DNA of 64,000 bases from Nocardia sp. NBC_01503. GTDB lineage: Bacteria > Actinomycetota > Actinomycetes > Mycobacteriales > Mycobacteriaceae. Below, piece by piece: positions 25,757-37,390 of this stretch. The notes below the pieces were generated by a model that made no database searches, was not told the origin of the DNA, and worked only from the letters and a program-made list of their open reading frames with translations. Position numbers and translations under genes: made by a program. How positions within the stretch are numbered: the stretch's first letter is position 1; every line of letters begins with the position of its first letter. The stretch is taken from NCBI RefSeq assembly GCF_036327755.1, contig NZ_CP109596.1:5952001-6016000 (forward strand), read 5' to 3'.

Positions 25757-26704
25757 TCAGCTCGATTCGAATCCGGCCGCGTTTGTGCAGTACTGCCACA
25801 CATATTCGCGGTCGGTCTCGGAGGTGCGGGTGCGGGGCAGGTAGTGCTCGGGGCGGATGCGGCGGTCATGCCAGAAGTGGCCGGGCGGGACCTCGGTGGC
25901 GGCGAGCCAGAGGGCGGTGTCGGCGCCTTCGGCGGGGGTGCGCAGCAGTGGGCCGGTCAGGCGGCGGAACCGGGGGAGTGAGGTCGCCACGCCCGGTGTG
26001 TCGACCCAGCCGGGGTGCATGGAATGTACGGAAATGTGCTGTGCGGCATATCGTTCGGCCAATTTCGGGGTGAGGGCTACCTGGATGCGTTTGGTGCGGG
26101 CGTAGGCGGTCGCACCGTGGTAGTCGCCCGTGCGGTATTCGATGTCCTGGACCGGCAGGGGCTGGGAGTACATGCCGCCCGAGGACACCAGGATCACCCG
26201 GCCCGCGCCCGAGCGCTCCAGCGCGGGCGCCAGCAGTTCGGTGGCCAGTAGTGGGCCGAGAACGTGTGTGGCCAAACAGATTTCATGGCCCTGCGGGCTT
26301 TCGGCGCGAGTGCGCGGCAGCACGCCCGCGTTGTGTACCAGGATGTCCACCCGGTCGGTGTGGTCGAGCAATTCGTGTGCGAAGCGTCGCACATCGGTCA
26401 GGTCCGAGATATCGCAGCGCGCCACGCGCACGGTGGCGCCGGGGGTGTCGGCGGTGATGTCGGCGGCCGCGGCGGCCCCGCGCTCGGTATCGCGCACGAC
26501 CAGGGTCACCTCCGCGCCGAGTTCGGCCATCCCGGCCGCCATGGCCTTACCGATGCCGGAGTTGGCGCCGGTGATCAGCGCGGTGCGCCCGCGCAGCGCA
26601 TCCGGTGCGAGGGGTTCCCAGGACGTGCGACGCAGCAGCAGGCCGGGTTTGCCGTAGCCGAGCAGGACGGTGCGGTCGAGCAGGGTGTCGAGGCGATTGT
26701 GCAT
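25757..26704 (-). CDS. SDR family oxidoreductase (retinol dehydrogenase-like)
   Basis: 315 aa from ATG 26704. TGANSGIGKAMA cofactor motif, VHNAGVLP, and a catalytic SSGGMYS ... YARTKR (Tyr/Lys) region, followed by SMHPGWVDTPGV, the pattern of RDH/WWOX-like SDRs. About 45 residues precede the Rossmann fold (DRTVLLGYGKPGLLLRRTSW). It is transcribed divergently from the FAD oxidase operon, and the CarH/LitR-type operator lies between the starts, so it may share that control. Substrate unknown. Confidence 0.85.
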   Translation of the reverse strand: MHNRLDTLLDRTVLLGYGKPGLLLRRTSWEPLAPDALRGRTALITGANSGIGKAMAAGMAELGAEVTLVVRDTERGAAAAADITADTPGATVRVARCDISDLTDVRRFAHELLDHTDRVDILVHNAGVLPRTRAESPQGHEICLATHVLGPLLATELLAPALERSGAGRVILVSSGGMYSQPLPVQDIEYRTGDYHGATAYARTKRIQVALTPKLAERYAAQHISVHSMHPGWVDTPGVATSLPRFRRLTGPLLRTPAEGADTALWLAATEVPPGHFWHDRRIRPEHYLPRTRTSETDREYVWQYCTNAAGFESS

Positions 26705-26770: not shown

Positions 26771-26795
26771 CGATGCATCGTTTTTGCATCGATTC
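26771..26795. promoter_or_regulatory. CarH/LitR-type operator A
   Basis: A perfect palindrome CGATGCATCG (26771-26780), five bases, then GCATCGAT. The unit TGCATCG recurs 11 bp apart (26774 and 26785), the spacing of CarH operators. Nearly the same 23 bp occur at 31564-31588. It lies between the divergent SDR (start 26704) and the FAD oxidase operon, whose last gene is a MerR-B12 regulator, the likely ligand. Confidence 0.75.
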
Positions 26796-26863
26796 AATGC
26801 TACCGTCGATCGCACGAGCCGGGCCACATCTCCGATCGGCTCGTTCGATCGCCGGAGGAAACG

Positions 26864-26908
26864 ATGAACACGACATCTCACAGGACCGATCAGCTGTGCG
26901 CGCGCTGA
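26864..26908 (+). CDS. possible 14-codon leader peptide ahead of the FAD oxidase
   Basis: ATG 26864 is preceded by an excellent GGAGGAAACG ribosome binding site, the best in the operon. It opens only a 14-residue frame (MNTTSHRTDQLCAR) that stops at 26908, after overlapping the apparent start of the FAD oxidase in another frame. It could be a leader peptide coupling translation, or the true start of the oxidase displaced by a frameshift. Confidence 0.4.
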   Translation: MNTTSHRTDQLCAR

Positions 26909-28224
26909 CCGGAGCCACCCGCCGAGTGGCGGTGATCGGCAGCGGCGTCTCGGGTCTCACCGCCGCGTGGGTATTGGCGCGCGACTCCGAAGTCGTGCTG
27001 TACGAGGCGGATTCCAGGCTCGGCGGGCACGCCCACACCCACGAACTGGCCGCGGGGCAGGACCTACGGCTGGGCGTGGATTCGGGATTCATCGTGCACA
27101 ACGACCGCACGTATCCGACCCTGTCGCGACTGTTCGGCGAATTGGGAATCCGCACACAGGAATCCGATATGTCGATGTCCGTGCGCTGCGACGGCTGCGG
27201 CCTGGAGTACGCCGGAGCGAAGGGACCGCGCGGATTGTTCCCGGCGCCGAGCACCCTGCGCCGGGGCGCGTACCTGCGCATGCTCGGCGAGATCACGCGT
27301 TTTCATCGCTTGGCGCGCGCCGAGCTCGGGGGCGACGGGGACGAACTGCGCACCCTGGGGGAGTTCCTGCGCGAAGCCGCGTTCTCCGCTTACTTCACCG
27401 CGCATTTCATGGTTCCGCTGGTCGCCGCGGTCTGGTCCTGCCCGCCGAATCTGGCGCTGGAGTACCCCGCGCGTTACCTGTTCACCTTCCTCGAACATCA
27501 CGGCATGCTGACCGTCTTCGGCTCACCGACCTGGCGAACCGTCTCGGGTGGTTCGGCCAACTATGTGCGGGCCGTGGCCGCGGGCGTGCACGAGGTCCGC
27601 GCGGGCGTGCCGGTGCGGTCGGTACACCGGGCCTCGCATACGGTCGCGGTGCGCGATGACGCCGACCAGGTCGAGTTCTTCGATGCCGCGATCATCGCCA
27701 CACATCCGGATCAGGCACTGCGACTGCTGGATACGCCGACCGCGACGGAGTCCGCGGTGCTCGGCGCATTGCCCTACTCGCCGAATCGGACGGTGCTGCA
27801 CACCGACGAATCGGTGCTGCCGCGCAGCACCGGCGCTCGCGCCTCCTGGAACTACCGACTGCCGCAATGCCACACCGCGCCCGACCGAGTACTGGTCAGC
27901 TACGACCTGTCCCGATTGCAGCGGCTGCCCGGCGGCGCGGACCGCCGCTTCCTGGTCACCCTCGGAGACGGCGACCGGGTCGCGCCCGAAGCCGTGCTGG
28001 CCACCATGGAGTACGAACACCCGCGGTACACCACCGAATCCGTGGCCGCTCGTCGTCGGCTGCCCGATCTGGGTGACCACACCGTCGCCTTCGCGGGTGC
28101 TTATCACGGGTGGGGATTCCATGAGGACGGCGCGGTATCGGGTCTGCGGGCGGCCGAACGTGTCGGCGGGCGATGGTCGGCCCGGCCGTCGGTGCCGGTG
28201 CGCTCCTCGGGGACCCGGTCATGA
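26896..28224 (+). CDS. FAD-dependent amine oxidase-like protein (Rv0449c-like)
   Basis: 442 aa from GTG 26896. Rossmann FAD motif RRVAVIGSGVSGLTAAWVLA with VVLYEADSRLGGHAHTH, the flavin amine oxidase/desaturase signature. A C-terminal FAD motif follows (VAFAGAYHGWGFHEDGAVSGLRAAERV). This gene, DUF1365 and the cyclopropane synthase form a conserved trio seen in M. tuberculosis (Rv0449c-Rv0447c) and in light or singlet-oxygen regulons of other bacteria. Role: lipid modification, exact reaction unknown. The GTG start has only AGGA ten bases upstream and lies inside the leader frame described separately. The stop overlaps the next start by 4 bp. Confidence 0.88.
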   Translation: MRALTGATRRVAVIGSGVSGLTAAWVLARDSEVVLYEADSRLGGHAHTHELAAGQDLRLGVDSGFIVHNDRTYPTLSRLFGELGIRTQESDMSMSVRCDGCGLEYAGAKGPRGLFPAPSTLRRGAYLRMLGEITRFHRLARAELGGDGDELRTLGEFLREAAFSAYFTAHFMVPLVAAVWSCPPNLALEYPARYLFTFLEHHGMLTVFGSPTWRTVSGGSANYVRAVAAGVHEVRAGVPVRSVHRASHTVAVRDDADQVEFFDAAIIATHPDQALRLLDTPTATESAVLGALPYSPNRTVLHTDESVLPRSTGARASWNYRLPQCHTAPDRVLVSYDLSRLQRLPGGADRRFLVTLGDGDRVAPEAVLATMEYEHPRYTTESVAARRRLPDLGDHTVAFAGAYHGWGFHEDGAVSGLRAAERVGGRWSARPSVPVRSSGTRS

Positions 28225-28946
28225 CCCGAGCTCGGTTGGCGCGCACCGTCATCGGGCATACCCGGCGTGAACCGGTGCGACACGCATTCACCTACCGCAG
28301 CTACAGCTGGCTGGTCGACCTCGACGAACTGCCAGTACTGCCCCGGCCGCTGCGTCCGTTCGCGGGCTTCGAGGCTCGGGACCATCTCGGCGATCCGGCC
28401 GCCACGGTGCGACAGAATATCGAGGCATACCTCGCCGAGGCTGGAATCGATCTGAGCGGCGGGCAGATTCTCATGCTCACCAATGCCCGGGTTCTGGGTT
28501 ATGTGTTCAACCCATTGACCGTCTTCTGGTGTCACGACCCGACCGGCCGACTGCGCTGTGTGATCGCGGAGGTGCACAACACCTATGGCGGAAGGCATCG
28601 ATACCTGATTCCCCCGGAGTCGTGCGCGGAGGTGGCCAAGGAGTTCTACGTATCACCGTTCAACCCCGTATCCGGCCGCTACCTCCTGCGCCTTCCCGTC
28701 CCGGACGACCGGTTGCGACTGGCGATATCGCTCGAGAATCCCGACGGCAGAACGATATTCGACGCGACCGTCACCGGGCGCGTGGTTCCCGCGCACACCC
28801 GAACCCTGCTGCGCATCCTGTGTGCGCATCCCCTCGAAACCTGGCGGATCACCGCCCGCATCCGCCGGCAGGGCCTGCTGCTGTGGCTGCGCGGTCTGCC
28901 GATCGTTCCTCGAACCACGCCCTCGCCTCAGGAGGCTCTGCGATGA
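28221..28946 (+). CDS. DUF1365 protein (Rv0448c-like)
   Basis: 241 aa. DUF1365 signature: an N-terminal RREPVRHAFTYRSYSWLVDLDELP, then DHLGDPAATVRQNIEAYL, LTNARVLGYVFNPLTVFWCHD, AEVHNTYGGRHRYL and KEFYVSPFNPVSGRYLLRL. It is always found with the FAD oxidase and cyclopropane synthase and is thought to act with them in fatty-acid modification, without a defined reaction. ATG 28221 overlaps the previous stop (ATGA), and the next gene overlaps in the same way. Confidence 0.93.
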   Translation: MTRARLARTVIGHTRREPVRHAFTYRSYSWLVDLDELPVLPRPLRPFAGFEARDHLGDPAATVRQNIEAYLAEAGIDLSGGQILMLTNARVLGYVFNPLTVFWCHDPTGRLRCVIAEVHNTYGGRHRYLIPPESCAEVAKEFYVSPFNPVSGRYLLRLPVPDDRLRLAISLENPDGRTIFDATVTGRVVPAHTRTLLRILCAHPLETWRITARIRRQGLLLWLRGLPIVPRTTPSPQEALR

Positions 28947-30256
28947 CCACCACCGTGTACCCGGAGACGCCGGCCGCGCCGATGCCCGAGCAGTGGGCCG
29001 GGCTGCGGCGGGCGCCACGTGGAATCCGGCCCGCGTTGGGCAGCCCGATCGTATCGCGCCTGTTCCGAAACGCGGTGTCCCGCTTGCCTGTTCGAGTGGA
29101 TCTGCCCCACGGTCGGGCACTGGGCGCGGGGGCGAACGACCCGGCGGCCCCGGTCATGGTGCTGCATGATCCGCGAGCCTTCACCGCGCGTATCGCAGCG
29201 ACGGGCCTGATCGGCTTCGGTGAGGGGTACATGGCGGGTGACTGGTCCGCACCCGATCCCGCCGCGGTGCTGACCGTATTCGCCGGAGCCATCGATCGAT
29301 TGGTGCCCGCACCCCTGCAATCGTTGCGATCGGCGCTGCTGCCGAGTCAGCCGCGCGCGCATCGCGCCACGGCCTCGGGGGCCGAAACCAATGCCGCGCA
29401 CCATTACGACCTGTCGAACGAGCTGTTCGCGCTGTTCCTCGACGAGACGATGACCTACTCCTCGGCGCTGTTCGACCGGCTCGAACCCGCCCCGGCCTGG
29501 CGGGACCTCGCCGACGCCCAGCGCCGCAAAATCGATACGCTGCTCGACGACGCCGAGGTGGGCCCCGGCACCCGAATGCTCGAAATCGGCACCGGCTGGG
29601 GCGAATTGGCGATCCGTGCCGCCGAGCGCGGGGCAATCGTCCGATCGGTGACCCTCTCCGCGGAACAGCAGCGGCTGGCGCGGGAACGGGTGGCCGCCGC
29701 CGGGGTTGCGGAGCGGGTCTCGATCGAGCTGCTCGATTACCGCGCGGTGGACGGGGTCTACGACGCGGTGGTCTCGGTCGAGATGATGGAGGCCGTCGGA
29801 TTCGAATATCTGCCGGAATACCTGCGGACGCTGACCCGCGTGCTGGCACCCGGCGGGCGCGTCGCGGTGCAGGTGATCACCATGCCGCATGAGCGGATGC
29901 TCGCCGGGCGGCGCACGCACACCTGGATTCAGAAGTACATCTTTCCGGGCGGCTTCCTGCCATCGGAAACGCTACTGGCGCAGCAGCTCTCGGAACACTC
30001 CGGGCTGGTGGCGACACACCGGCGGGCGCTGGGCGCGCACTACGCGCACACCCTGCGCCTGTGGCGGGAACGGTTCGACGGAGCCACCACCGGCGTCGAA
30101 CAACTCGGCTTCGACGAGACGTTCCAGCGCATGTGGCGTCTCTACCTGGCCTACTCCGAGGCGGGATTCCGGTCCGGCTACCTCGATGTCGTGCAGTTGG
30201 TGCTCGAGCATCGCGAGGACACTGCGGCGGATCTCGGCGCGGCGGTCGCACGGTGA
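28943..30256 (+). CDS. cyclopropane-fatty-acyl-phospholipid synthase-type methyltransferase (UfaA1-like)
   Basis: 437 aa. SAM-dependent CFA/mycolic-acid-methyltransferase family: substrate-side N-terminal domain, HHYDLSNELFALFLDETMTYSSALF, the SAM motif MLEIGTGWGELAIRAAERG, LLDYRAVDGVYDAVVSVEMMEAVG, QVITMPHERM and WIQKYIFPGGFLPS. CFA synthases add a methylene to cis double bonds of membrane lipids; the M. tuberculosis homologue ufaA1 lies next to sigK. CAGGAGG precedes the ATG, which overlaps the DUF1365 stop by 4 bp. Confidence 0.93.
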   Translation: MTTTVYPETPAAPMPEQWAGLRRAPRGIRPALGSPIVSRLFRNAVSRLPVRVDLPHGRALGAGANDPAAPVMVLHDPRAFTARIAATGLIGFGEGYMAGDWSAPDPAAVLTVFAGAIDRLVPAPLQSLRSALLPSQPRAHRATASGAETNAAHHYDLSNELFALFLDETMTYSSALFDRLEPAPAWRDLADAQRRKIDTLLDDAEVGPGTRMLEIGTGWGELAIRAAERGAIVRSVTLSAEQQRLARERVAAAGVAERVSIELLDYRAVDGVYDAVVSVEMMEAVGFEYLPEYLRTLTRVLAPGGRVAVQVITMPHERMLAGRRTHTWIQKYIFPGGFLPSETLLAQQLSEHSGLVATHRRALGAHYAHTLRLWRERFDGATTGVEQLGFDETFQRMWRLYLAYSEAGFRSGYLDVVQLVLEHREDTAADLGAAVAR

Positions 30257-30648
30257 ACGCCACCATTCCCGCGCGGCTGGTCGGCGTCGCGACGGCGGTT
30301 TACGGTGCGGCGGTGGTCATCCGGCCCGAGGTGCTGCTGCGACCGACCGGGCTGGGCAGCGGCACCGAACCCGAGTTGCGGGCCACGGCTCGGCTGATCG
30401 CACTGCGTGATCTGGTCTCGGGTCTGGCCCTGGCGATCGCGGACGATCCCGCGGCCCGCCGGACCGCCGCGATCATCCGGGTGGCCTGCGACGCGGCGGA
30501 CACCTCGGTATTCGGCATCGCCCTGGACGGTCGTCGGGAACGCGTGAAAACCCTTGCGGTGACCGCGGGTTGGGGTGCGCTGTGCGCGCTGGCCGCGGGG
30601 TACGAGGTACGGGGCGGGGGCTGGCCGCGGCGTACGGCGACACCATGA
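30253..30648 (+). CDS. DUF4267 family small membrane protein
   Basis: 131 aa from GTG 30253, whose GTGA overlaps the previous stop. Four hydrophobic segments (for example ARLVGVATAVYGAAVVI and AVTAGWGALCALAAGYEV), with RLIALRDLVSGLALAIADD, match the DUF4267 family. Function is unknown. It takes the place that another membrane protein occupies between ufaA1 and sigK in M. tuberculosis. The stop overlaps the regulator start by 4 bp. Confidence 0.75.
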   Translation: MNATIPARLVGVATAVYGAAVVIRPEVLLRPTGLGSGTEPELRATARLIALRDLVSGLALAIADDPAARRTAAIIRVACDAADTSVFGIALDGRRERVKTLAVTAGWGALCALAAGYEVRGGGWPRRTATP

Positions 30649-31520
30649 CAGCGCCGCCGGGCACACCCGAACCGGGCGAGTCGACCGAGTACACCGTCGG
30701 AGCGGTCGCCCGGCTGCTCGGTGTTCCGGTGGCCACGCTGCGCAGCTGGAATCAGCGGTACGGCATCGGCCCGCGGCATCATCTGCCGGGCAGACACCGC
30801 TACTACAGCGTCGCCGACCTGTCCGTCGCACGCCGGATGACCGAGCTGATCCGAGCCGGTGCGACCCCGGCCAGCGCGGCCCAGGCGGCGCTGATCGTGC
30901 TCGAACCCGCACCGGCGCCGGGTGAGTTCGGACCACTGCTCGCGGCCGCCGAGCGCATGGACGTCGCCGCGCTGGTGCGTCTCATCTCCGGGCATCTGGC
31001 TCATCACGGGGTCTGTGATACCTGGAATCGCTTGTGCCGCCCGACTTTCGAGGCGATCGTCGATCGTCAGGACGCGGGTGGCGGATATATCGATGTCGAG
31101 CATCTGCTGTCCTGGGCGGTGCTGACCGGTCTCTACCGGGGTGTTCCGGCGCTGGTGGGTCCCGGCCGCGAACCCCGCGTACTCCTGGCCTGCACCGCGG
31201 GTGAACGGCATACGCTGCCGCTGGAGGTATTGCGGGCCGCGCTGGCCGAACGTCGTTGTGCCGCTTTGCCACTCGGTGCGGACCTGCCCGCCGAGGCATT
31301 GTCCGACGCGCTGGACCGGCAGACCACGGCGAACGTCGTTGTGCTGTGGTCGCAGACCGCCGCGACCGCGACCGCGGAGTCGGTCCGGGTCGCGGAGTCG
31401 CACGGCGTGGCGGTACTGCGGGCGGGCCCTGGCTGGACGGCGGCCGAATACGCCGGTGGCGGAAGGTATCTCGGCTCACTGGAGAAGGCGCTCGCCGTGA
31501 TTCTGGATGTGATTCGTTAG
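30645..31520 (+). CDS. MerR-family, B12-binding regulator (CarH/LitR-like)
   Basis: 291 aa. MerR HTH at about 12-80 (YTVGAVARLLGVPVATLRSWNQRYGI...HRYYSVADLSVARRMTELI). A helical bundle (about 98-170) and a Rossmann-like cobalamin domain follow, with the ligand-type motif ERHTLP (E-x-H, where the usual G is P), then LPLGADLPAEAL. CarH/LitR proteins bind adenosylcobalamin as dark repressors and release DNA on illumination. It is the last gene of the operon (4-bp overlap), so it probably autoregulates through operator A and controls the SDR-DUF2867 gene through operator B. The altered G residue makes cobalamin binding worth testing. Confidence 0.87.
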   Translation: MTAPPGTPEPGESTEYTVGAVARLLGVPVATLRSWNQRYGIGPRHHLPGRHRYYSVADLSVARRMTELIRAGATPASAAQAALIVLEPAPAPGEFGPLLAAAERMDVAALVRLISGHLAHHGVCDTWNRLCRPTFEAIVDRQDAGGGYIDVEHLLSWAVLTGLYRGVPALVGPGREPRVLLACTAGERHTLPLEVLRAALAERRCAALPLGADLPAEALSDALDRQTTANVVVLWSQTAATATAESVRVAESHGVAVLRAGPGWTAAEYAGGGRYLGSLEKALAVILDVIR

Positions 31521-31563
31521 GCCGCGGCGAGCTGCGTCGTGGTGGCGGCAGGTAAGCGGCACT

Positions 31564-31588
31564 CGATGCATCGATTTCGCATCGATCG
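31564..31588. promoter_or_regulatory. CarH/LitR-type operator B
   Basis: CGATGCATCG at 31564-31573, five bases, then GCATCGAT. It matches operator A at all but two positions over 23 bp. The 11-bp repeat is again present (TGCATCG at 31567, CGCATCG at 31578). It is 94 bp upstream of the SDR-DUF2867 start and just downstream of the MerR-B12 gene. Confidence 0.75.
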
Positions 31589-31681
31589 GCGTAGGCTTGT
31601 GGAGTAGCATCCCGCACTCCGGCCGTACGGCGACGATGACAACAGCGTCTCGGCTCGACCTCGAGGGAAGGTGCCAACACT

Positions 31682-33154
31682 ATGCGCTGCGTCGTATTCG
31701 GAGCTTCCGGGTATATCGGCGGCCGCCTCGTCCCGGAATTGCTCGCCGCCGGTCACACCGTTCGAGTGCTGGCCCGCAATCCGGGCAAACTGATCGAGGC
31801 CGCATGGCGCGATGATGTCGAGATCGTCCGGGGCGACGCCGATTCCGAGGCCGATGTCGCCGCCGCGCTGTCGGGGCAGGACGTGCTGTTCTACCTGGTG
31901 CACTCGCTGACCCGAACCGATTTCGAGACCGTCGATCGTGCGGCGGCGACCACGGTGGCACGGGTGGCGGCCGAGGCGGGTATCGCGCGGATCGTCTACC
32001 TCGGCGGTATCGCCCCGTCGGGTGAACGGCTGTCCCGGCATCTGTCCTCCCGCTCGGAGGTGGGCCGGATCTTCCTCGCGGGCGCGGTCCCGGCGGTGGT
32101 GTTGCAGGCCGCGGTGATCATCGGATCGGGTTCGGCCAGCTTCGAAATGCTGCGCTATCTCACCGAACGACTGCCGATCATGATCACTCCGCGGTGGGTG
32201 CGCAATCGCATCCAGCCGATCGCCGTGCGCGATGTGCTGTACTACCTCACCCGTGCCGCGGAGCTGCCCGCCGACGTGAGCGCCGCCTTCGACATCGGCG
32301 GCCCGGAGGTGCTGACCTATGAGCTGATGATGCGCGAATACGCTCGAACCGCCGGACTCGCCCGCCGGATCATCCTGCCGGTGCCCGTGCTGACCCCGTG
32401 GCTCTCGGCCCAATGGGTCAACCTCGTCACCCCGGTGCCCCGGGCGATCGCGGTGCCGCTGATGGAGTCGCTGGTGAACGATGTGGTCTGCGCTGATCAC
32501 GCGATAGCGCAATACATTCCGGATCCGCCCGCGGGGTTGACCCCCTATCGGCGCGCCCTGGAACTGGCCCTGCAACGTATCCGCGATCGCGAGGTGCCGA
32601 CCCGATGGTCGGACGCCGAAACCGTTCCGGCCCCGTCGGATCCGTTGCCCACCGATCCGGACTGGTCCGGCGGTTCGCTGTATCTCGATGTGCGCGAACG
32701 GCATACGACCGCGAGTCAGGAGGCGGTATGGGGGGTGATCGAATCCATCGGGGGTGTGCACGGCTGGTACTCCTTCCCGCTGGCCTGGTCGCTGCGCGGC
32801 TGGATCGACCGGTTCGCCGGCGGTGCGGGACTGGTCCGCGGGCGTCGTGATCCGCACCGGTTGCGCGCGGGGGAGGCCCTGGACTGGTGGCGGGTGGACG
32901 CCATCGACCGTCCGAATGTGCTGCGACTGCGCGCGGAGATGCGGGTTCCCGGCCGGGCCTGGCTGGAACTGTCGGTCACCCCGGCCGCGCGCGGCGGCGC
33001 GCTCTACCGTCAGCGCGCGGTCTTCGAACCACACGGCCTGGCCGGGCATCTGTATTGGAAGACGATCGTCCCGTTCCACGCCGTCATCTTCGGCGGCATG
33101 GCGCGCAATATCACCGGCGCGGCGGAACGGGTGAGCCGCATCCAGCACCGGTGA
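31682..33154 (+). CDS. NAD(P)-binding SDR fused to DUF2867
   Basis: 490 aa. The N-terminal half is an atypical SDR/NmrA-like Rossmann domain (CVVFGASGYIGGRLVPELLAAGHTVRVLARNP) with LFYLVHSLTR and RIVYLGGIAP. The C-terminal half (from about 330) is DUF2867, a helix-grip domain (VWGVIESIGGVHGWYSFPLAW, FAGGAGLVRGRRDPHRLRAGEALDWWRV). Fused proteins of this type are common beside the FAD oxidase/CFA genes in actinobacteria. Reaction unknown; a lipid or quinone-like substrate is a guess. Transcription is probably controlled by operator B. Confidence 0.9.
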   Translation: MRCVVFGASGYIGGRLVPELLAAGHTVRVLARNPGKLIEAAWRDDVEIVRGDADSEADVAAALSGQDVLFYLVHSLTRTDFETVDRAAATTVARVAAEAGIARIVYLGGIAPSGERLSRHLSSRSEVGRIFLAGAVPAVVLQAAVIIGSGSASFEMLRYLTERLPIMITPRWVRNRIQPIAVRDVLYYLTRAAELPADVSAAFDIGGPEVLTYELMMREYARTAGLARRIILPVPVLTPWLSAQWVNLVTPVPRAIAVPLMESLVNDVVCADHAIAQYIPDPPAGLTPYRRALELALQRIRDREVPTRWSDAETVPAPSDPLPTDPDWSGGSLYLDVRERHTTASQEAVWGVIESIGGVHGWYSFPLAWSLRGWIDRFAGGAGLVRGRRDPHRLRAGEALDWWRVDAIDRPNVLRLRAEMRVPGRAWLELSVTPAARGGALYRQRAVFEPHGLAGHLYWKTIVPFHAVIFGGMARNITGAAERVSRIQHR

Positions 33155-33260: not shown

Positions 33261-33641
33261 ATGACATCGATCAGTACCCTGCACGGAATCGGCGCCGCCT
33301 TGGCCATCGGCGGATTTGCCGCCGGGACAGCATTATTCGGGGCGGGCGCGGCCTATGCCGATCCGATGGGCGATCTCGAACCGCTGTTGAGCTCGAGCTG
33401 TTCGTTCGCGCAGATCGATTCGGCCCTGCACCAGGTGGCGCCCGATACCGCCGCGCAGTTGGACGCGGCTCCGGGGCAGAAGGCCGCATTGAAGAACGCC
33501 TACGACCAGCCGGCGGATCAGCGGCGGGCCTCCTTCCAGCAGTTGATCGCCGAACAGCAGCGAATGGGTGTCACCGCGACCGCCAATCAGGATTTCGGCG
33601 CCAAGATGAGCCAGGTGGTCGACACCTGCCACCAGTACTGA
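33261..33641 (+). CDS. hemophore-related exported protein (Rv0203-like family)
   Basis: 126 aa. Sec signal peptide (GIGAALAIGGFAAGTALFGAGAAYA, cleavage near residue 33), then a helical domain with two cysteines (SSSCSFAQIDSALHQVAPDTAAQLD ... QVVDTCHQY) matching the mycobacterial hemophore-like family. Family members carry haem outside the cell. The Tyr and His residues that would bind haem cannot be fixed from one sequence. GAGAGGG precedes the ATG. It is convergent with the lone rskA copy. Confidence 0.85.
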   Translation: MTSISTLHGIGAALAIGGFAAGTALFGAGAAYADPMGDLEPLLSSSCSFAQIDSALHQVAPDTAAQLDAAPGQKAALKNAYDQPADQRRASFQQLIAEQQRMGVTATANQDFGAKMSQVVDTCHQY

Positions 33642-33704: not shown

Positions 33705-34433
33705 TCAGATGATTTGCACCGCGACGACCGGGGCGGTGGTGGGTTGCGGCGAACCTCCGGCGGGTTCGACCGACAGGGCGACCAGTTCGGCATGATCGAG
33801 GCGCACGAGCAGGGGAGCTCGGTCGGTGGGCAGCGCGGCGAAGACGGTGACCGATTGTGGTTGCCCCGCCGGGAGTATCAACCACAATTGGTACGCGTGA
33901 CCGGTCGGCGGATCCGGTACCGCGACGAAAGATACTGTGGCGGTGTTCAATTCGCGCGAGAATCGGACGGTTATGGTGCCGCCCCCGGTGAGTCGCGCGG
34001 TTCGGCCGTGGGTGTCGGCGTGGCTGAGCACCTGTTCGGCGGTGACGCGGCCGGATTCACCGAAACGGCCCATGGTCACCGCGATCACCGCCCCGATCGC
34101 GATCATCGCTATCAGGGCCGCCGCGGCGAGTGCCCAGCGCCGCCCGCGCACCCGATGTTCGGGCGGCGACTGCGGCGGTGTGGTGCCGAGCTGATCGTCC
34201 AGGGCGCGTTGCAGGGCCGCTTCCAGGCCGGGTGGCGCGGGATGGGCGTCCGCCGTCGTCATTACCGCCAGGGTCTCGCGAATCTCGTGGACGGCGCTGC
34301 GGAAGTCGGCCGCGGTGTTCTCGTCGGCGGCGTTCAACAACTGCTCGACCGCCTCGCGTTCACTGTCGGTGAGCGCGTCGAGGGCGTACGGGTACGCCGA
34401 CTCGAGCAGGTCGGGTTCATGGTGCTCAGGCAT
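33705..34433 (-). CDS. anti-sigma K factor (RskA-like), partner of a decayed sigma gene
   Basis: 242 aa. Layout of RskA: an N-terminal cytoplasmic sigma-binding domain (ESAYPYALDALTDSEREAVEQLL), one transmembrane helix at about 98-118 (WALAAAALIAMIAIGAVIAVTM) and an extracytoplasmic domain ending PAGGSPQPTTAPVVAV. It appears intact and overlaps the 3' end of the sigK-like remnant, so the pair was an operon. With its sigma partner lacking the -35-binding domain, it may be unemployed or may bind the intact SigK at 35967 (inference). A second RskA is at 36641. Confidence 0.9.
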   Translation of the reverse strand: MPEHHEPDLLESAYPYALDALTDSEREAVEQLLNAADENTAADFRSAVHEIRETLAVMTTADAHPAPPGLEAALQRALDDQLGTTPPQSPPEHRVRGRRWALAAAALIAMIAIGAVIAVTMGRFGESGRVTAEQVLSHADTHGRTARLTGGGTITVRFSRELNTATVSFVAVPDPPTGHAYQLWLILPAGQPQSVTVFAALPTDRAPLLVRLDHAELVALSVEPAGGSPQPTTAPVVAVQII

Positions 34434-34731
34434 CGTTCATCGATCCTGCCAAACAGGTCCGCAGGCGTTTCAGACCCTCGCGGATGCGTAGTTCGAGGCG
34501 CACTCGGTCAACTGCCCGGCGATGGGTGCGCATCATCGGCCAGCCGATCGGACTGGCCAGTCGTTCGTCATAGTGCGTCGCCGCGTTCCAGACGTACAGG
34601 TAGACCTCCTGGGTGATCTCCGCGGCCGCGGTATCGCGGCGCGGTACGCGCAAGGCCGGTCCGAATACTCGGTCATGGGTGGATCGGTAGCACTGGGGAA
34701 AGCGTTGCGGGCGCCGCGGCGAAATCGGCAA
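34426..34731 (-). pseudogene. decayed sigK-like ECF sigma factor
   Basis: A 101-codon frame, opened only by a TTG, holds a worn sigma-2 region (YRSTHDRVFGPALRV, EITQEVYLYVWNAATHYDERLASPIGW, THRRAVDRVR). It then jumps in frame directly to the very end of sigma-4 (RIREGLKRLRTCLAGS). Compared with the intact SigK at 35967, about 75-80 residues, including the sigma-4 HTH, are deleted, and the N-terminus before FPQCYRST is lost. Substitutions such as FYRST to CYRST and WLMM to WPMM support decay. It overlaps the start of its rskA partner. Confidence 0.85.
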
Positions 34732-35207
34732 ACAAACTGGTCAGTCGGTGCGAGGCATGGGATGTGGGGTCACGCCGCGTCACCGCGAGACTAGTTGTGC
34801 TCGTCGATCCAGGGGAAGCATCCCGCCGGTATTCAGCGTGGCGAACCGGGGAGTGTCCCCCCCGGCGCCGGCGCCGCCGCAGGTTCGGCGACGGCACCGC
34901 TGATCACGGCGTTATCACGTCGCGACCCCGGAGCTCGGCTTCGACATGCGCACTCACCCGATTTGGATTCGGCACGGAGTTTTTTCGGATTGGACCAAAC
35001 CCTCGCCCGGGTCTGGGCGAAACCCTTTGTGTAGTCGTTGAATATCGACGGCCACCGGGGCCCTGAGCCAGCCCCGTGCGCGGAGATCACCGGTCGGCCC
35101 CAGTCCACCCCGACCTGATTCGGCCGGTGATCGCGCGAGACCGGGGGATTGCGAAATCTTTTACGCCCCGGGCCCTGAGACCGGGCCCGATCACAAAGGA
35201 AACGAAC
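34732..35207 (+). other. 476-bp non-coding region upstream of the fasciclin gene
   Basis: This gap separates the sigK remnant from the fasciclin lipoprotein. Part is probably the eroded 5' portion of the remnant. It contains a small G/C hairpin in CGCCCGGGTCTGGGCG near 35007, the 16-mer GATTGCGAAATCTTTT at 35147-35162 shared with the NRPS promoter, and a hairpin (CGGGCCC at 35169-35175 with GGGCCCG at 35183-35189) just before the ribosome binding site. I see no convincing gene in it. Confidence 0.6.
35147..35162 (+). promoter_or_regulatory. 16-mer shared with the NRPS promoter (copy 1)
   Basis: GATTGCGAAATCTTTT, 45 bp before the fasciclin start codon (35208). It contains the semi-palindrome GATT-NNNN-AATC. 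The exact reverse complement lies at 39045-39060. Either a common operator or a relic of duplication. Confidence 0.5.
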
Positions 35208-35843
35208 ATGAACCTGACCCAGCGAACTCTTGCCGTGACCATCGCCCTGACCGCGGCCGCCGCCGGTATCTCCGGTTGTAGCAATGACAAGTCGGATTCG
35301 AGCAGCACCTCGACCACCACGATGGCGGCCTCCAGCTCCGCCGCGGCCGCGGCCGACCTGGTGGGTCCCGGATGCAAGGACTACGCACAGCAGGTGCCCA
35401 CCGGTGCCGGATCGGTGAGCGGTATGGCCCAGGATCCGGTGGCGGTCGCGGCCTCGCATAATCCGCTGCTCACCAAGCTCGTCGCGGCGGTCTCGGGCCA
35501 ACTCAATCCGCAGGTCAACCTGGTCGACACCCTCGACGGCGGACAATTCACCGTCTTCGCACCGGTGGATACGGCCTTCGCGAAAGTCCCAGCGGCTACT
35601 GTTGATTCGCTCGAGACCGATTCGGCCACGCTCACCAAGATCCTCACGTACCACGTCGTGCCCGGGCAGATCGCGCCCGACAAGATCGCCGGTGCGCATA
35701 AGACGGTCGAGGGGGGCGAGGTGACCGTCACCGGCAGCGGGGACAACCTCAAAGTCGGTGACGCCTCGGTGATCTGCGGTGGGGTGCGTACCGCGAACGC
35801 GACGGTCTACATGATCGACAGCGTTCTCATGCCGCCCGCCTGA
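35208..35843 (+). CDS. fasciclin-domain lipoprotein (MPT83/MPT70-like)
   Basis: 211 aa, with AAAGGAAA upstream of the ATG. Signal peptide with lipobox ISGC (Cys near 24), Ser/Thr/Ala-rich linker, a [12 protein letters not shown] segment typical of MPT83/MPT70, then one FAS1 domain ([73 protein letters not shown]). In M. tuberculosis the orthologous antigens are the main SigK targets. Here the gene sits directly upstream of an intact sigK-rskA pair. Cell-surface adhesion is the general role of FAS1 proteins. Confidence 0.93.
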
Positions 35844-35966: not shown

Positions 35967-36644
35967 GTGACAGAGGAAGAGCATTCGCGGGTCGTACCAC
36001 TGTTCCGGGATCTCGGCGGGGAATTCGTGGCCGGGGATTCGGCGCCCGGTCCGGCCTGCCCCACCGGGGGGATCGCCCGTGACGAACAGCTGACCCGGCG
36101 CCTGAGCGGTCTGGTCGTGGCGGTGGGCGGCGGTGATCGCGATGCCTTCACCGAGCTGTACCGACTGACCAGTCACCGCGTCTTCGGCCTGGCGCTACGT
36201 ATGTCGCGCAATCGCGCGACGGCTGAGGAGGTCACGCAGGAGGTGTACCTCCAGGCGTGGTCATTGGCGGACCGCTACGACGAGCGCGTGTCGAGCCCGA
36301 TGGGCTGGCTCATGATGCTGACCCACCGGCGCGCGGTCGATCGCATTCGGGTGGAGAACTCCGCCGCGAATCGCGAACTCGTCTACGGGCAACTACATAT
36401 GGGCCGCGATCACGATGTCGTACTCGAAGCCGTCGAACAGCGGATGGACGAGTCGGATGTGCTGCGCTGCCTGGCGACATTGACCCCGCTGCAGCGCGAC
36501 ACCATCGCGCTCGCCTACTACGGCGGTCGAACCTACACCGAGGTCGCCGAACAACTGGGCACACCGGTGCCCACCGTGAAAACCCGTATTCGTGACGGTC
36601 TCAAGCGCCTAGCGGCCTGTCTGACAGGAGGTGAACTCCCATGA
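35967..36644 (+). CDS. sigK: ECF sigma factor SigK
   Basis: 225 aa from GTG 35967. Region 2 (DAFTELYRLTSHRVFGLALRMSRNRATAEEVTQEVYLQAW ... SSPMGWLMMLTHRRAVDRIR) and region 4 (LRCLATLTPLQRDTIALAYYGGRTYTEVAEQLGTPVPTVKTRIRDGLKRL) are both complete. It closely follows the sigK pattern of mycobacteria and is coupled by a 4-bp overlap to its anti-sigma factor. Likely targets are the fasciclin gene just upstream and this operon. The start is uncertain because the ribosome binding site is weak; upstream in-frame codons exist. Confidence 0.92.
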   Translation: MTEEEHSRVVPLFRDLGGEFVAGDSAPGPACPTGGIARDEQLTRRLSGLVVAVGGGDRDAFTELYRLTSHRVFGLALRMSRNRATAEEVTQEVYLQAWSLADRYDERVSSPMGWLMMLTHRRAVDRIRVENSAANRELVYGQLHMGRDHDVVLEAVEQRMDESDVLRCLATLTPLQRDTIALAYYGGRTYTEVAEQLGTPVPTVKTRIRDGLKRLAACLTGGELP

Positions 36645-37390
36645 GCGCCATCGAGCGGCCCGGCATCGAGCCGGGCAGCGATCTGCTCGAGCTCGCTTAC
36701 CCCTATGCGATCGACGCGGTGACCGACGGTGAACGCGAGGAGATCGAGCTGCGGCGCGCGCATGCCGATCGGCTGACCGCGGCCGAGTTCGATGCCATCG
36801 TGGCCTGGGTGCGGGAGACGATGGCGGATCTCAGCATCGCCGACTCCTGTTCTCCTCCGGCTGATCTCGAGGATCGACTGATGCGCGCCCTCGACCGGGT
36901 GACGGTGCCGCCGCCCGCCGAGACCGCTCGGCGCCGCACCCAGCCCCATCGGTGGTACTGGCTCACCGCGGCGGCCGTGGTGATCGTGGCGATCGGAATG
37001 GGGCTCGGGTTCACCGTCTTTCGATCCGCCGAGCGCCCCGCCGCCGATGTGCTCTCGGCTGCCCTGATCGATCGGCAGCCCGATATGACGGCGCGGGTGG
37101 TGCCGGTCAGCTCCGGCGGGGAGCTCGAGATTCACACCTCCGCAACACTTTCCGCCGCTTCTGTCCGGTTTCTTGCGGTTCCGGAGCCGCCCGCCGGACA
37201 CACCTACCAGATGTGGCTGGTGCCGCTGGGCGGCACTCCGCGCTCGACCGCCGTACTCGATACGATCGTCGGCGATCCGCTGGTGATGCCGTTCCAGTCG
37301 GTGGACACCCTGGCGGTCACCGTGGAACCACTCGGTGGATCGCCGCAGCCGACGACCACGCCGATCGTCAGCCTCAACCTCGTCACATGA
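36641..37390 (+). CDS. rskA: anti-sigma K factor RskA
   Basis: 249 aa. N-terminal anti-sigma domain (DLLELAYPYAIDAVTDGEREEIELRRAHADRLTAAEFDAIVAWVRETMADL), a transmembrane helix at about 105-127 (WYWLTAAAVVIVAIGMGLGFTVF) and an extracytoplasmic RskA domain ending EPLGGSPQPTTTPIVSLNLV. RskA proteins hold SigK inactive at the membrane until proteolysed under a redox signal. The start overlaps the sigK stop (ATGA), and the stop overlaps the next gene in the same way. Confidence 0.92.
   Translation: MSAIERPGIEPGSDLLELAYPYAIDAVTDGEREEIELRRAHADRLTAAEFDAIVAWVRETMADLSIADSCSPPADLEDRLMRALDRVTVPPPAETARRRTQPHRWYWLTAAAVVIVAIGMGLGFTVFRSAERPAADVLSAALIDRQPDMTARVVPVSSGGELEIHTSATLSAASVRFLAVPEPPAGHTYQMWLVPLGGTPRSTAVLDTIVGDPLVMPFQSVDTLAVTVEPLGGSPQPTTTPIVSLNLVT

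Follow-up and report, generated by a model that had tools for sequence, protein, structure and literature searches.

Light-responsive repressors of the CarH and class I LitR type, described from Thermus, Bacillus and Myxococcus, consist of a MerR-type N-terminal domain followed by a cobalamin domain built of a helical bundle and a Rossmann part. Their cobalamin pocket carries the E-H and G-x-x-H residues and the cap G-x-x-W, and their operators are 11-bp direct repeats overlapping the promoter. In CarH operators the repeat is nnnnTnnACAn, present in three copies in Thermus and four in Bacillus (PMC9304148). The subject of this work is a putative regulator of this type (30645–31520, + strand) and two operator sites (26771–26793 and 31564–31586, both + strand) in a 64-kb stretch of DNA of Nocardia sp. 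NBC_01503, analysed at its full length and hereafter called the window (contig 1, positions 5952001–6016000, of the 8.5-Mb genome). The window protein shares the domain order, the E-H and G-x-x-H residues and an 11-bp direct-repeat operator overlapping a predicted promoter with CarH and class I LitR. It differs in having V-x-x-Q in place of the cap, a repeat of the form TGCATCGWTTn, of which two copies are visible, and lipid and short-chain dehydrogenase/reductase (SDR) genes as predicted targets.

Two further groups of cobalamin-related proteins are relevant to the comparison. Class II LitR genes of Pseudomonas (PplR/PmlR) go with light-induced genes for photolyase, SDR, flavin adenine dinucleotide (FAD)-dependent oxidoreductase and UfaM-type methyltransferase (PMC9758184), and the association of a LitR-type regulator with such genes is common to both systems. 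These proteins are said to keep the helical part of the B12-binding domain (B12-binding_2) alone and to use a short LOV partner, whereas the window protein keeps the Rossmann part and the cobalt-binding His, its model and structure matches spanning residues 88–291. The class II binding consensus, T(G/A)TACA, also differs from the operator described here. Photocobilins, the closest structures by Z score for residues 88–291, keep the capping Trp and a C-terminal bilin-binding globin domain (PMC10979010). The window protein has neither, and its 291 residues end with the Rossmann domain.

In the singlet-oxygen response, ChrR acts as the anti-sigma factor. When chrR is lost in Rhodobacter, the furan fatty acids, products of ufaM, ufaD and ufaO, increase (PMC7380195). 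These genes are another lipid-modifying set under stress control, likened to the window genes by description and not by protein comparison. Control in Rhodobacter is exerted by a sigma system, while a MerR repressor is proposed here. Searches of the open-access literature brought up no light-response regulon in Nocardia and its relatives and no description of this operator or of a Nocardia LitR; subscription papers may hold one.

The explanation that we favour, and consider probable as a whole, is that the 30645–31520 protein is a LitR/CarH-type repressor controlling a lipid operon as part of a photoprotective response. Together with a 54%-identical paralogue, it would bind two tandem 11-bp repeats TGCATCGWTTn overlapping the -35 region. 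The bound repressor would silence the divergent SDR gene, the SDR-DUF2867 gene and the FAD-DUF1365-CFA operon, whose last gene encodes the repressor itself. Release of the repressor, by light or by a photo-oxidative signal, would switch on membrane-lipid modification.

Paired predicted operators and their association with the putative regulator

Operator 1 is located between the divergent SDR gene and the FAD operon, and operator 2 between the regulator gene and the SDR-DUF2867 gene, 5' of the latter. Both are made of two 11-bp direct repeats, and direct comparison of the 23-mers gives 21 of 23 identical positions, in agreement with the initial annotation, which had reported two near-identical sites beginning at 26771 and 31564. 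Its placement of the sites ahead of the FAD operon and the SDR-DUF2867 gene was also right, but it had missed that operator 1 faces the divergent SDR gene as well.

Exact matches to TGCATCGNNNNYGCATCG number two in the window and zero in each of 100 dinucleotide-preserving shuffles. A looser pattern allowing up to three mismatches was found 73 times in the window versus 76 expected, which is chance level, and the case for the sites therefore rests on the exact matches. In the whole genome YGCATCGNNNNYGCATCG has three exact matches, comprising operators 1 and 2 and one site inside a catalase-like frame (labelled from its translation). A weight matrix was derived from 47 dereplicated exact sites found at other loci, those in coding sequence included; being trained on exact pattern matches, it mainly contributes the flanking positions. 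It scored the two window operators at 37.9 and 33.4, the next window position at 10.5 and the best of 60 simulated windows at 18.7. The other one-mismatch sites of this genome comprise two at the paralogue locus, three within called reading frames (L094, L095 and L098) and two between called genes with no recognised target (L096 and L097).

The logo of the 47 sites, TGCATCGWTTnTGCATCGWTT, corresponds to two 11-bp repeats TGCATCGWTTn, with no conserved third half-site. The 11-bp distance between the core repeats, also noted in the initial annotation, proved to be a fixed period: the 4-base gap that produces it occurs at 37 places in the 471,596 bp of homologue loci, and each other gap from 0 to 12 at 0 to 3. 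The hexamer TANNNT follows 25–27 bases from the motif start at 19 of the 47 sites, the mean in upstream control windows being 0.15 and the maximum 1. The probable -10 elements in the window are TACCGT (26801–26806, + strand), 27 bases from the motif start of operator 1, and TAGGCT (31592–31597, + strand), 25 bases from that of operator 2. TANNNT at the matching 27-base offset also precedes the FAD operons of L011, L012 and L013. The usual spacer between -35 and -10 elements is 17 bases. Such a spacer would place the -35 hexamer in the first repeat, so that bound protein would block the polymerase. The period and the -10 offset suggest an operator overlapping its promoter, in a layout expected for a LitR/CarH-type repressor. 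In a genome of genus g29, four half-sites form two tandem operators (L091:1501–1542) 5' of a short frame without an assigned family.

The occurrence of sites was surveyed in 201 genomes of the family. In 37 of them a regulator match reaches at least E 1e-10, and in 30 it reaches the stricter E 1e-30. The pattern YGCATCGNWTNYGCATCG is present in 23 of the 201 genomes: 20 of these 37 and 3 of the 164 that lack such a match (Fisher p 1.2e-14). With the stricter set the proportions are 19/30 versus 4/171 (p 1.9e-15). At genus level, 8 of the 10 genera that have the regulator also have sites, one of them being counted through a match to the helix-turn-helix (HTH) domain only, as against 2 of the 21 genera that lack it; inside genus g29 they occur in three of the four genomes with the regulator and in none of the ten without. 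A control pattern with the gap enlarged by one base showed no such link (7/37 with the regulator, 25/164 without). Exact sites are thus associated with the regulator, independently of the count of target classes given below.

The position of the sites relative to genes was determined for genes of loci L011–L064, taking about 400 bp upstream of each gene and at most one mismatch. Of the 47 dereplicated regulator genes 26 have a site, as do 3 of 4 FAD genes, 5 of 8 DUF2867 genes and both divergent SDR genes. As expected, inner operon genes have none (DUF1365 0/1, CFA 0/2, DUF4267 0/1). Ten other gap lengths, from 0 to 10, gave 0 or 1 upstream sites per gene set. The L013 FAD gene was counted as a miss, an exact site being present 431 bases before the match. 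The neighbours of the sites are conserved in relatives.

The gene of the paralogue (7237284–7238033, minus strand) adjoins a TIGR01777-family SDR gene. YGCATCGNNNNYGCATCG matches this locus at four places with one mismatch, once within the SDR frame, and the stricter pattern does so at two; the three sites outside the SDR frame have matrix scores of 32.4, 31.9 and 19.7. Both regulators are encoded side by side, convergently, in three close relatives (L011–L013), and the two proteins may share operators. A divergent protein with no Pfam hit (L009:10270–10974) shares the operator region of the paralogue, and similar frames are found at the same place in L028 and L042.

The putative regulator and its predicted cobalamin pocket

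The regulator, whose nearest named relatives are in Nocardia, has a MerR-type HTH domain (PF13411) followed by a CarH-like C-terminal domain, as is characteristic of the broad LitR/CarH family. Its best full-length match is CarH, both by sequence and by Foldseek search with the AlphaFold model (23 sequences, mean predicted local distance difference test score 87.7), in which full-length Thermus CarH was the best match (E about 1e-14). Residues 88–291 superimpose on photocobilins with Z 21.1 and a root-mean-square deviation (rmsd) of 2.7 over 200 residues, and on the cobalamin domain of CarH with Z 18.6. It also matches the structures of AppA, AerR, methionine synthase and corrinoid proteins, which is explained by the cobalamin-domain fold common to all of them.

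Residues were counted in family rows (up to 62, some being copies of one gene or from close relatives) and in class rows (21 among the matches listed, from a total of 138 matching genomes). Both the E-H pair and the cobalt-binding His of G-x-x-H, characteristic of class I, are kept in all rows with residues there (61/61 family, 21/21 class), and E152, H153 and H189 are invariant. The initial annotation had singled out E-x-H-x-x-P as a feature that might alter light sensing. The position three after the cobalt-binding His is P or A in all 61 family and 21 class rows and never G, including rows that keep the capping Trp. Because P or A occurs in all 82 rows, the motif is ordinary for the lineage, and a Gly-to-Pro change as the cause of altered sensing was rejected.

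The cap over the adenosyl group is different. V139-x-x-Q142 takes the place of the G-x-x-W of class I: the capping Trp is present in 17 of 21 class rows versus 2 of 59 family rows, 54 of the 59 having Q, and the Gly is replaced by Val in 48 of 59. Other residues nearly fixed in the family are W157 (56/61), C131 (53/59), R132 (57/59), F135 (55/59), C183 (59/61), E194 (60/62) and R197 (59/61), all of them mostly different in the 19 Trp-bearing rows. In a quick tree, the root of which is unsure owing to a very long CarH row, Trp-less family rows form one group of 53 (Shimodaira-Hasegawa-like approximate likelihood ratio test, 99), and the trait needs two changes. This pattern suggests that cobalamin binding is likely kept while the adenosyl side has been rebuilt.

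Besides the lost cap, several scores speak against a plain assignment to CarH. The full-length superposition is poor (rmsd 11–16 A, template modelling score 0.47–0.56), the domains matching one by one. Both B12 Pfam domains fall below the cut-off (16.2 and 13.2 bits), and the NCBIfam CarH equivalog, the marker of class I, reaches 65.7 bits against a cut-off of 400. An adenosylcobalamin mechanism just like that of CarH is accordingly the least sure point of the explanation and is held to be rather doubtful, since the cofactor's upper face lies under a rebuilt cap. A tentative proposal is that the protein belongs to an unnamed LitR class typical of Nocardia and its relatives. In this class the cobalamin pocket would have a rebuilt upper face (V-x-x-Q, W157, C131, R132, C183) with cobalt binding kept. 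Such a protein could employ a non-adenosyl upper ligand or cysteine/singlet-oxygen chemistry, and would control a photoprotection regulon via its own 11-bp-repeat operator.

It is possible, though not what we would expect, that the regulator is instead an ordinary B12 photoreceptor which binds adenosylcobalamin and responds to light as CarH does, Q142 and W157 substituting for the capping Trp. The invariant E152, H153 and H189 are consistent with this, as is the finding that CarH and photocobilin domains are the closest folds; W157, located one turn past the E-H pair, could be the substitute cap. The tested B12 photoreceptors, however, share G-x-x-W as well as E-H, G-x-x-H and G-x-x-x-P (PMC11796333), and in the family studied here the first of these motifs is lost along with a block of other fixed changes.

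Alternatively, the domain may be a structural relic of a cobalamin-free LitR, light being sensed via a partner protein, as by the short LOV protein in class II, or by way of singlet oxygen, with conserved Cys residues possibly acting as its sensors. The low Pfam B12 scores, the class II precedent with its similar gene set (PMC9758184) and the conservation of C131 and C183 would fit such a protein. This is nevertheless unlikely: retention of the cobalt-binding His and the E-H pair in every one of the 61 family rows is hard to explain without cobalamin, and no BLUF domain was found in the genome, LOV domains not having been searched.

Genes facing the predicted operators in the window and in relatives

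The operon downstream of operator 1 comprises five frames on the + strand, each overlapping the next by four bases. They encode a FAD-dependent amine-oxidase-like protein (26896–28224; PF01593), a DUF1365 protein (28221–28946; PF07103, E 1.2e-69), an S-adenosylmethionine-dependent methyltransferase of the cyclopropane fatty acid (CFA)/mycolic cyclopropane synthase type (28943–30256; PF02353, E 2.3e-83, with NCBIfam CFA models below cut-off), a small protein with weak, sub-threshold similarity to DUF4267 (30253–30648; PF14087, 17.3 bits versus a cut-off of 27.8) and the regulator. Divergent from the operon and facing operator 1 is a gene for an SDR-family oxidoreductase (25757–26704, minus strand; PF00106), in a layout that is the same in L012 and L013. 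The second predicted target, downstream of operator 2, codes for a NAD(P)-binding SDR fused to DUF2867 (31682–33154, + strand; PF13460, PF11066). The gene list of the initial annotation agrees with this, except that DUF4267 is supported only below threshold and that the divergent SDR gene was omitted.

GTG 26896 is the most likely start of the FAD frame. An ATG at 26864 has a good ribosome-binding site, yet it opens a frame of 14 codons only (26864–26908, + strand). In L012 the FAD frame runs further upstream, in frame, across the region matching 26864–26908.

Thirty-six exact sites were found in the 23 genomes, of which 27, two of them this genome's own, face genes of the following target classes: the regulator, crtE-like polyprenyl synthetase, photolyase, lipocalin, SigK-like sigma factor, fasciclin, SDR-DUF2867, TIGR01777/DUF1731 SDR and the FAD gene. 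One site-facing crtE-like gene is then followed by a gene for squalene/phytoene synthase. One-mismatch sites in homologue loci add MMPL and NUDIX genes, and fasciclin genes face the operator in L033, L040 and L076. The natural reading of this gene set is a photoprotection regulon, and a photoprotective role of the window operon would follow the same reading. The lipid-modification regulon predicted initially holds as far as gene anatomy goes, a FAD/DUF1365/CFA-type lipid operon lying under one site, and is broadened by the photoprotection genes of relatives. In Mycobacterium kansasii, crtE, crtI, crtB and genes for an MmpL transporter, isopentenyl diphosphate isomerase and photolyase are light-induced, and two fasciclin antigens are induced more weakly, 3- to 6-fold (PMC9861118).

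In the genome under study no operator was detected at the photolyase locus L131 (best score 4.3) or at the second crtE-like locus, L130 (nothing above 3). A hit at the crtE-like locus L129 scored 18.3, close to the best simulated score, and was rejected as lying inside a serine-hydrolase-like frame. A search for further sites, for instance near carotenoid genes, had been suggested by the initial annotation; it yielded no operator at these two crtE-like loci, four further crtE-like matches having been left out. As its own photolyase and these two crtE-like loci show no operator, this strain takes the photoprotection label from its relatives.

Light is the likeliest signal among those considered and probably the actual one. 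Alternatively, the sites could bind the regulator while the signal is something other than light, such as cobalamin status, redox or envelope stress, the common theme then being SigK-linked membrane genes. SigK-like and fasciclin genes are among the site-facing genes of relatives, and sigma/RskA genes lie 2–6 kb from operator 2 in the window. We regard this as improbable: light is indicated by the photolyase, crtE-crtB and lipocalin genes that face sites, and the fasciclin antigens themselves are light-induced in M. kansasii (PMC9861118).

Two pairs of genes for a sigma factor and anti-sigma-K factor (RskA) are located near the operon, at 33705–34433 and 34429–34731 (both minus strand) and at 36024–36644 and 36641–37390 (both + strand). 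The sigma frame 34429–34731 is short (101 residues), matching sigma region 2 only, and adjoins a full RskA gene; the second pair looks complete. A fasciclin-domain (MPT70/83-like) gene (35076–35843, + strand) lies between the sigma loci, and no operator was seen at it. The 33261–33641 frame (+ strand) encodes a small, probably secreted protein with weak, below cut-off similarity to the haem-binding (MHB) haemophore family.

Weight of the evidence and implications

Several observations weigh against the proposed regulon. Because the genomes are related, the Fisher values overstate independence; exact sites are missing from 17 of the 37 genomes that carry a regulator homologue, and in L011–L013 the operon regulator and the convergent paralogue have none in 400 bp upstream. 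Nine of the 36 exact sites have no recognised target, six of these being in genomes with a regulator match and three in genomes without. Since the definition of the target classes drew in part on the same loci and several genomes are close relatives, the count of 27 of 36 is descriptive and not a blind test. In M. kansasii, photochromogenicity and the carotenoid genes are credited to a MarR-type regulator (PMC9861118). Chance matches of such patterns in whole genomes are also commoner than the reversed-pattern control indicated. This control is weak: in this genome, at up to two mismatches, where matches are mostly chance ones, the reversed pattern gives 5 versus 80, so that its 0 of 201 genomes and 0 gene-upstream sites prove little. 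The gap-plus-one pattern is commoner than the true one (32 versus 23 genomes), perhaps because a 12-bp period fits reading frames.

It is very improbable that the two sites arose by chance or as repeat copies and have no role in regulation. Although exact matches to patterns of this size do occur by chance in whole genomes, as the gap-plus-one control in 32 of 201 demonstrates, the true pattern is linked to the regulator and the control is not, sites lie upstream of the same genes in relatives, other gap lengths are rare, and the window shuffles yielded no exact match.

The proposed LitR/CarH-type repressor and its operators provide a concrete, testable light-response regulon for Nocardia and its relatives. 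One operator would link genes of lipid modification with carotenoid, photolyase, lipocalin and SigK/fasciclin genes. The rebuilt pocket of the regulator raises the question of whether cobalamin can sense without the Trp that caps adenosylcobalamin in the tested photoreceptors.

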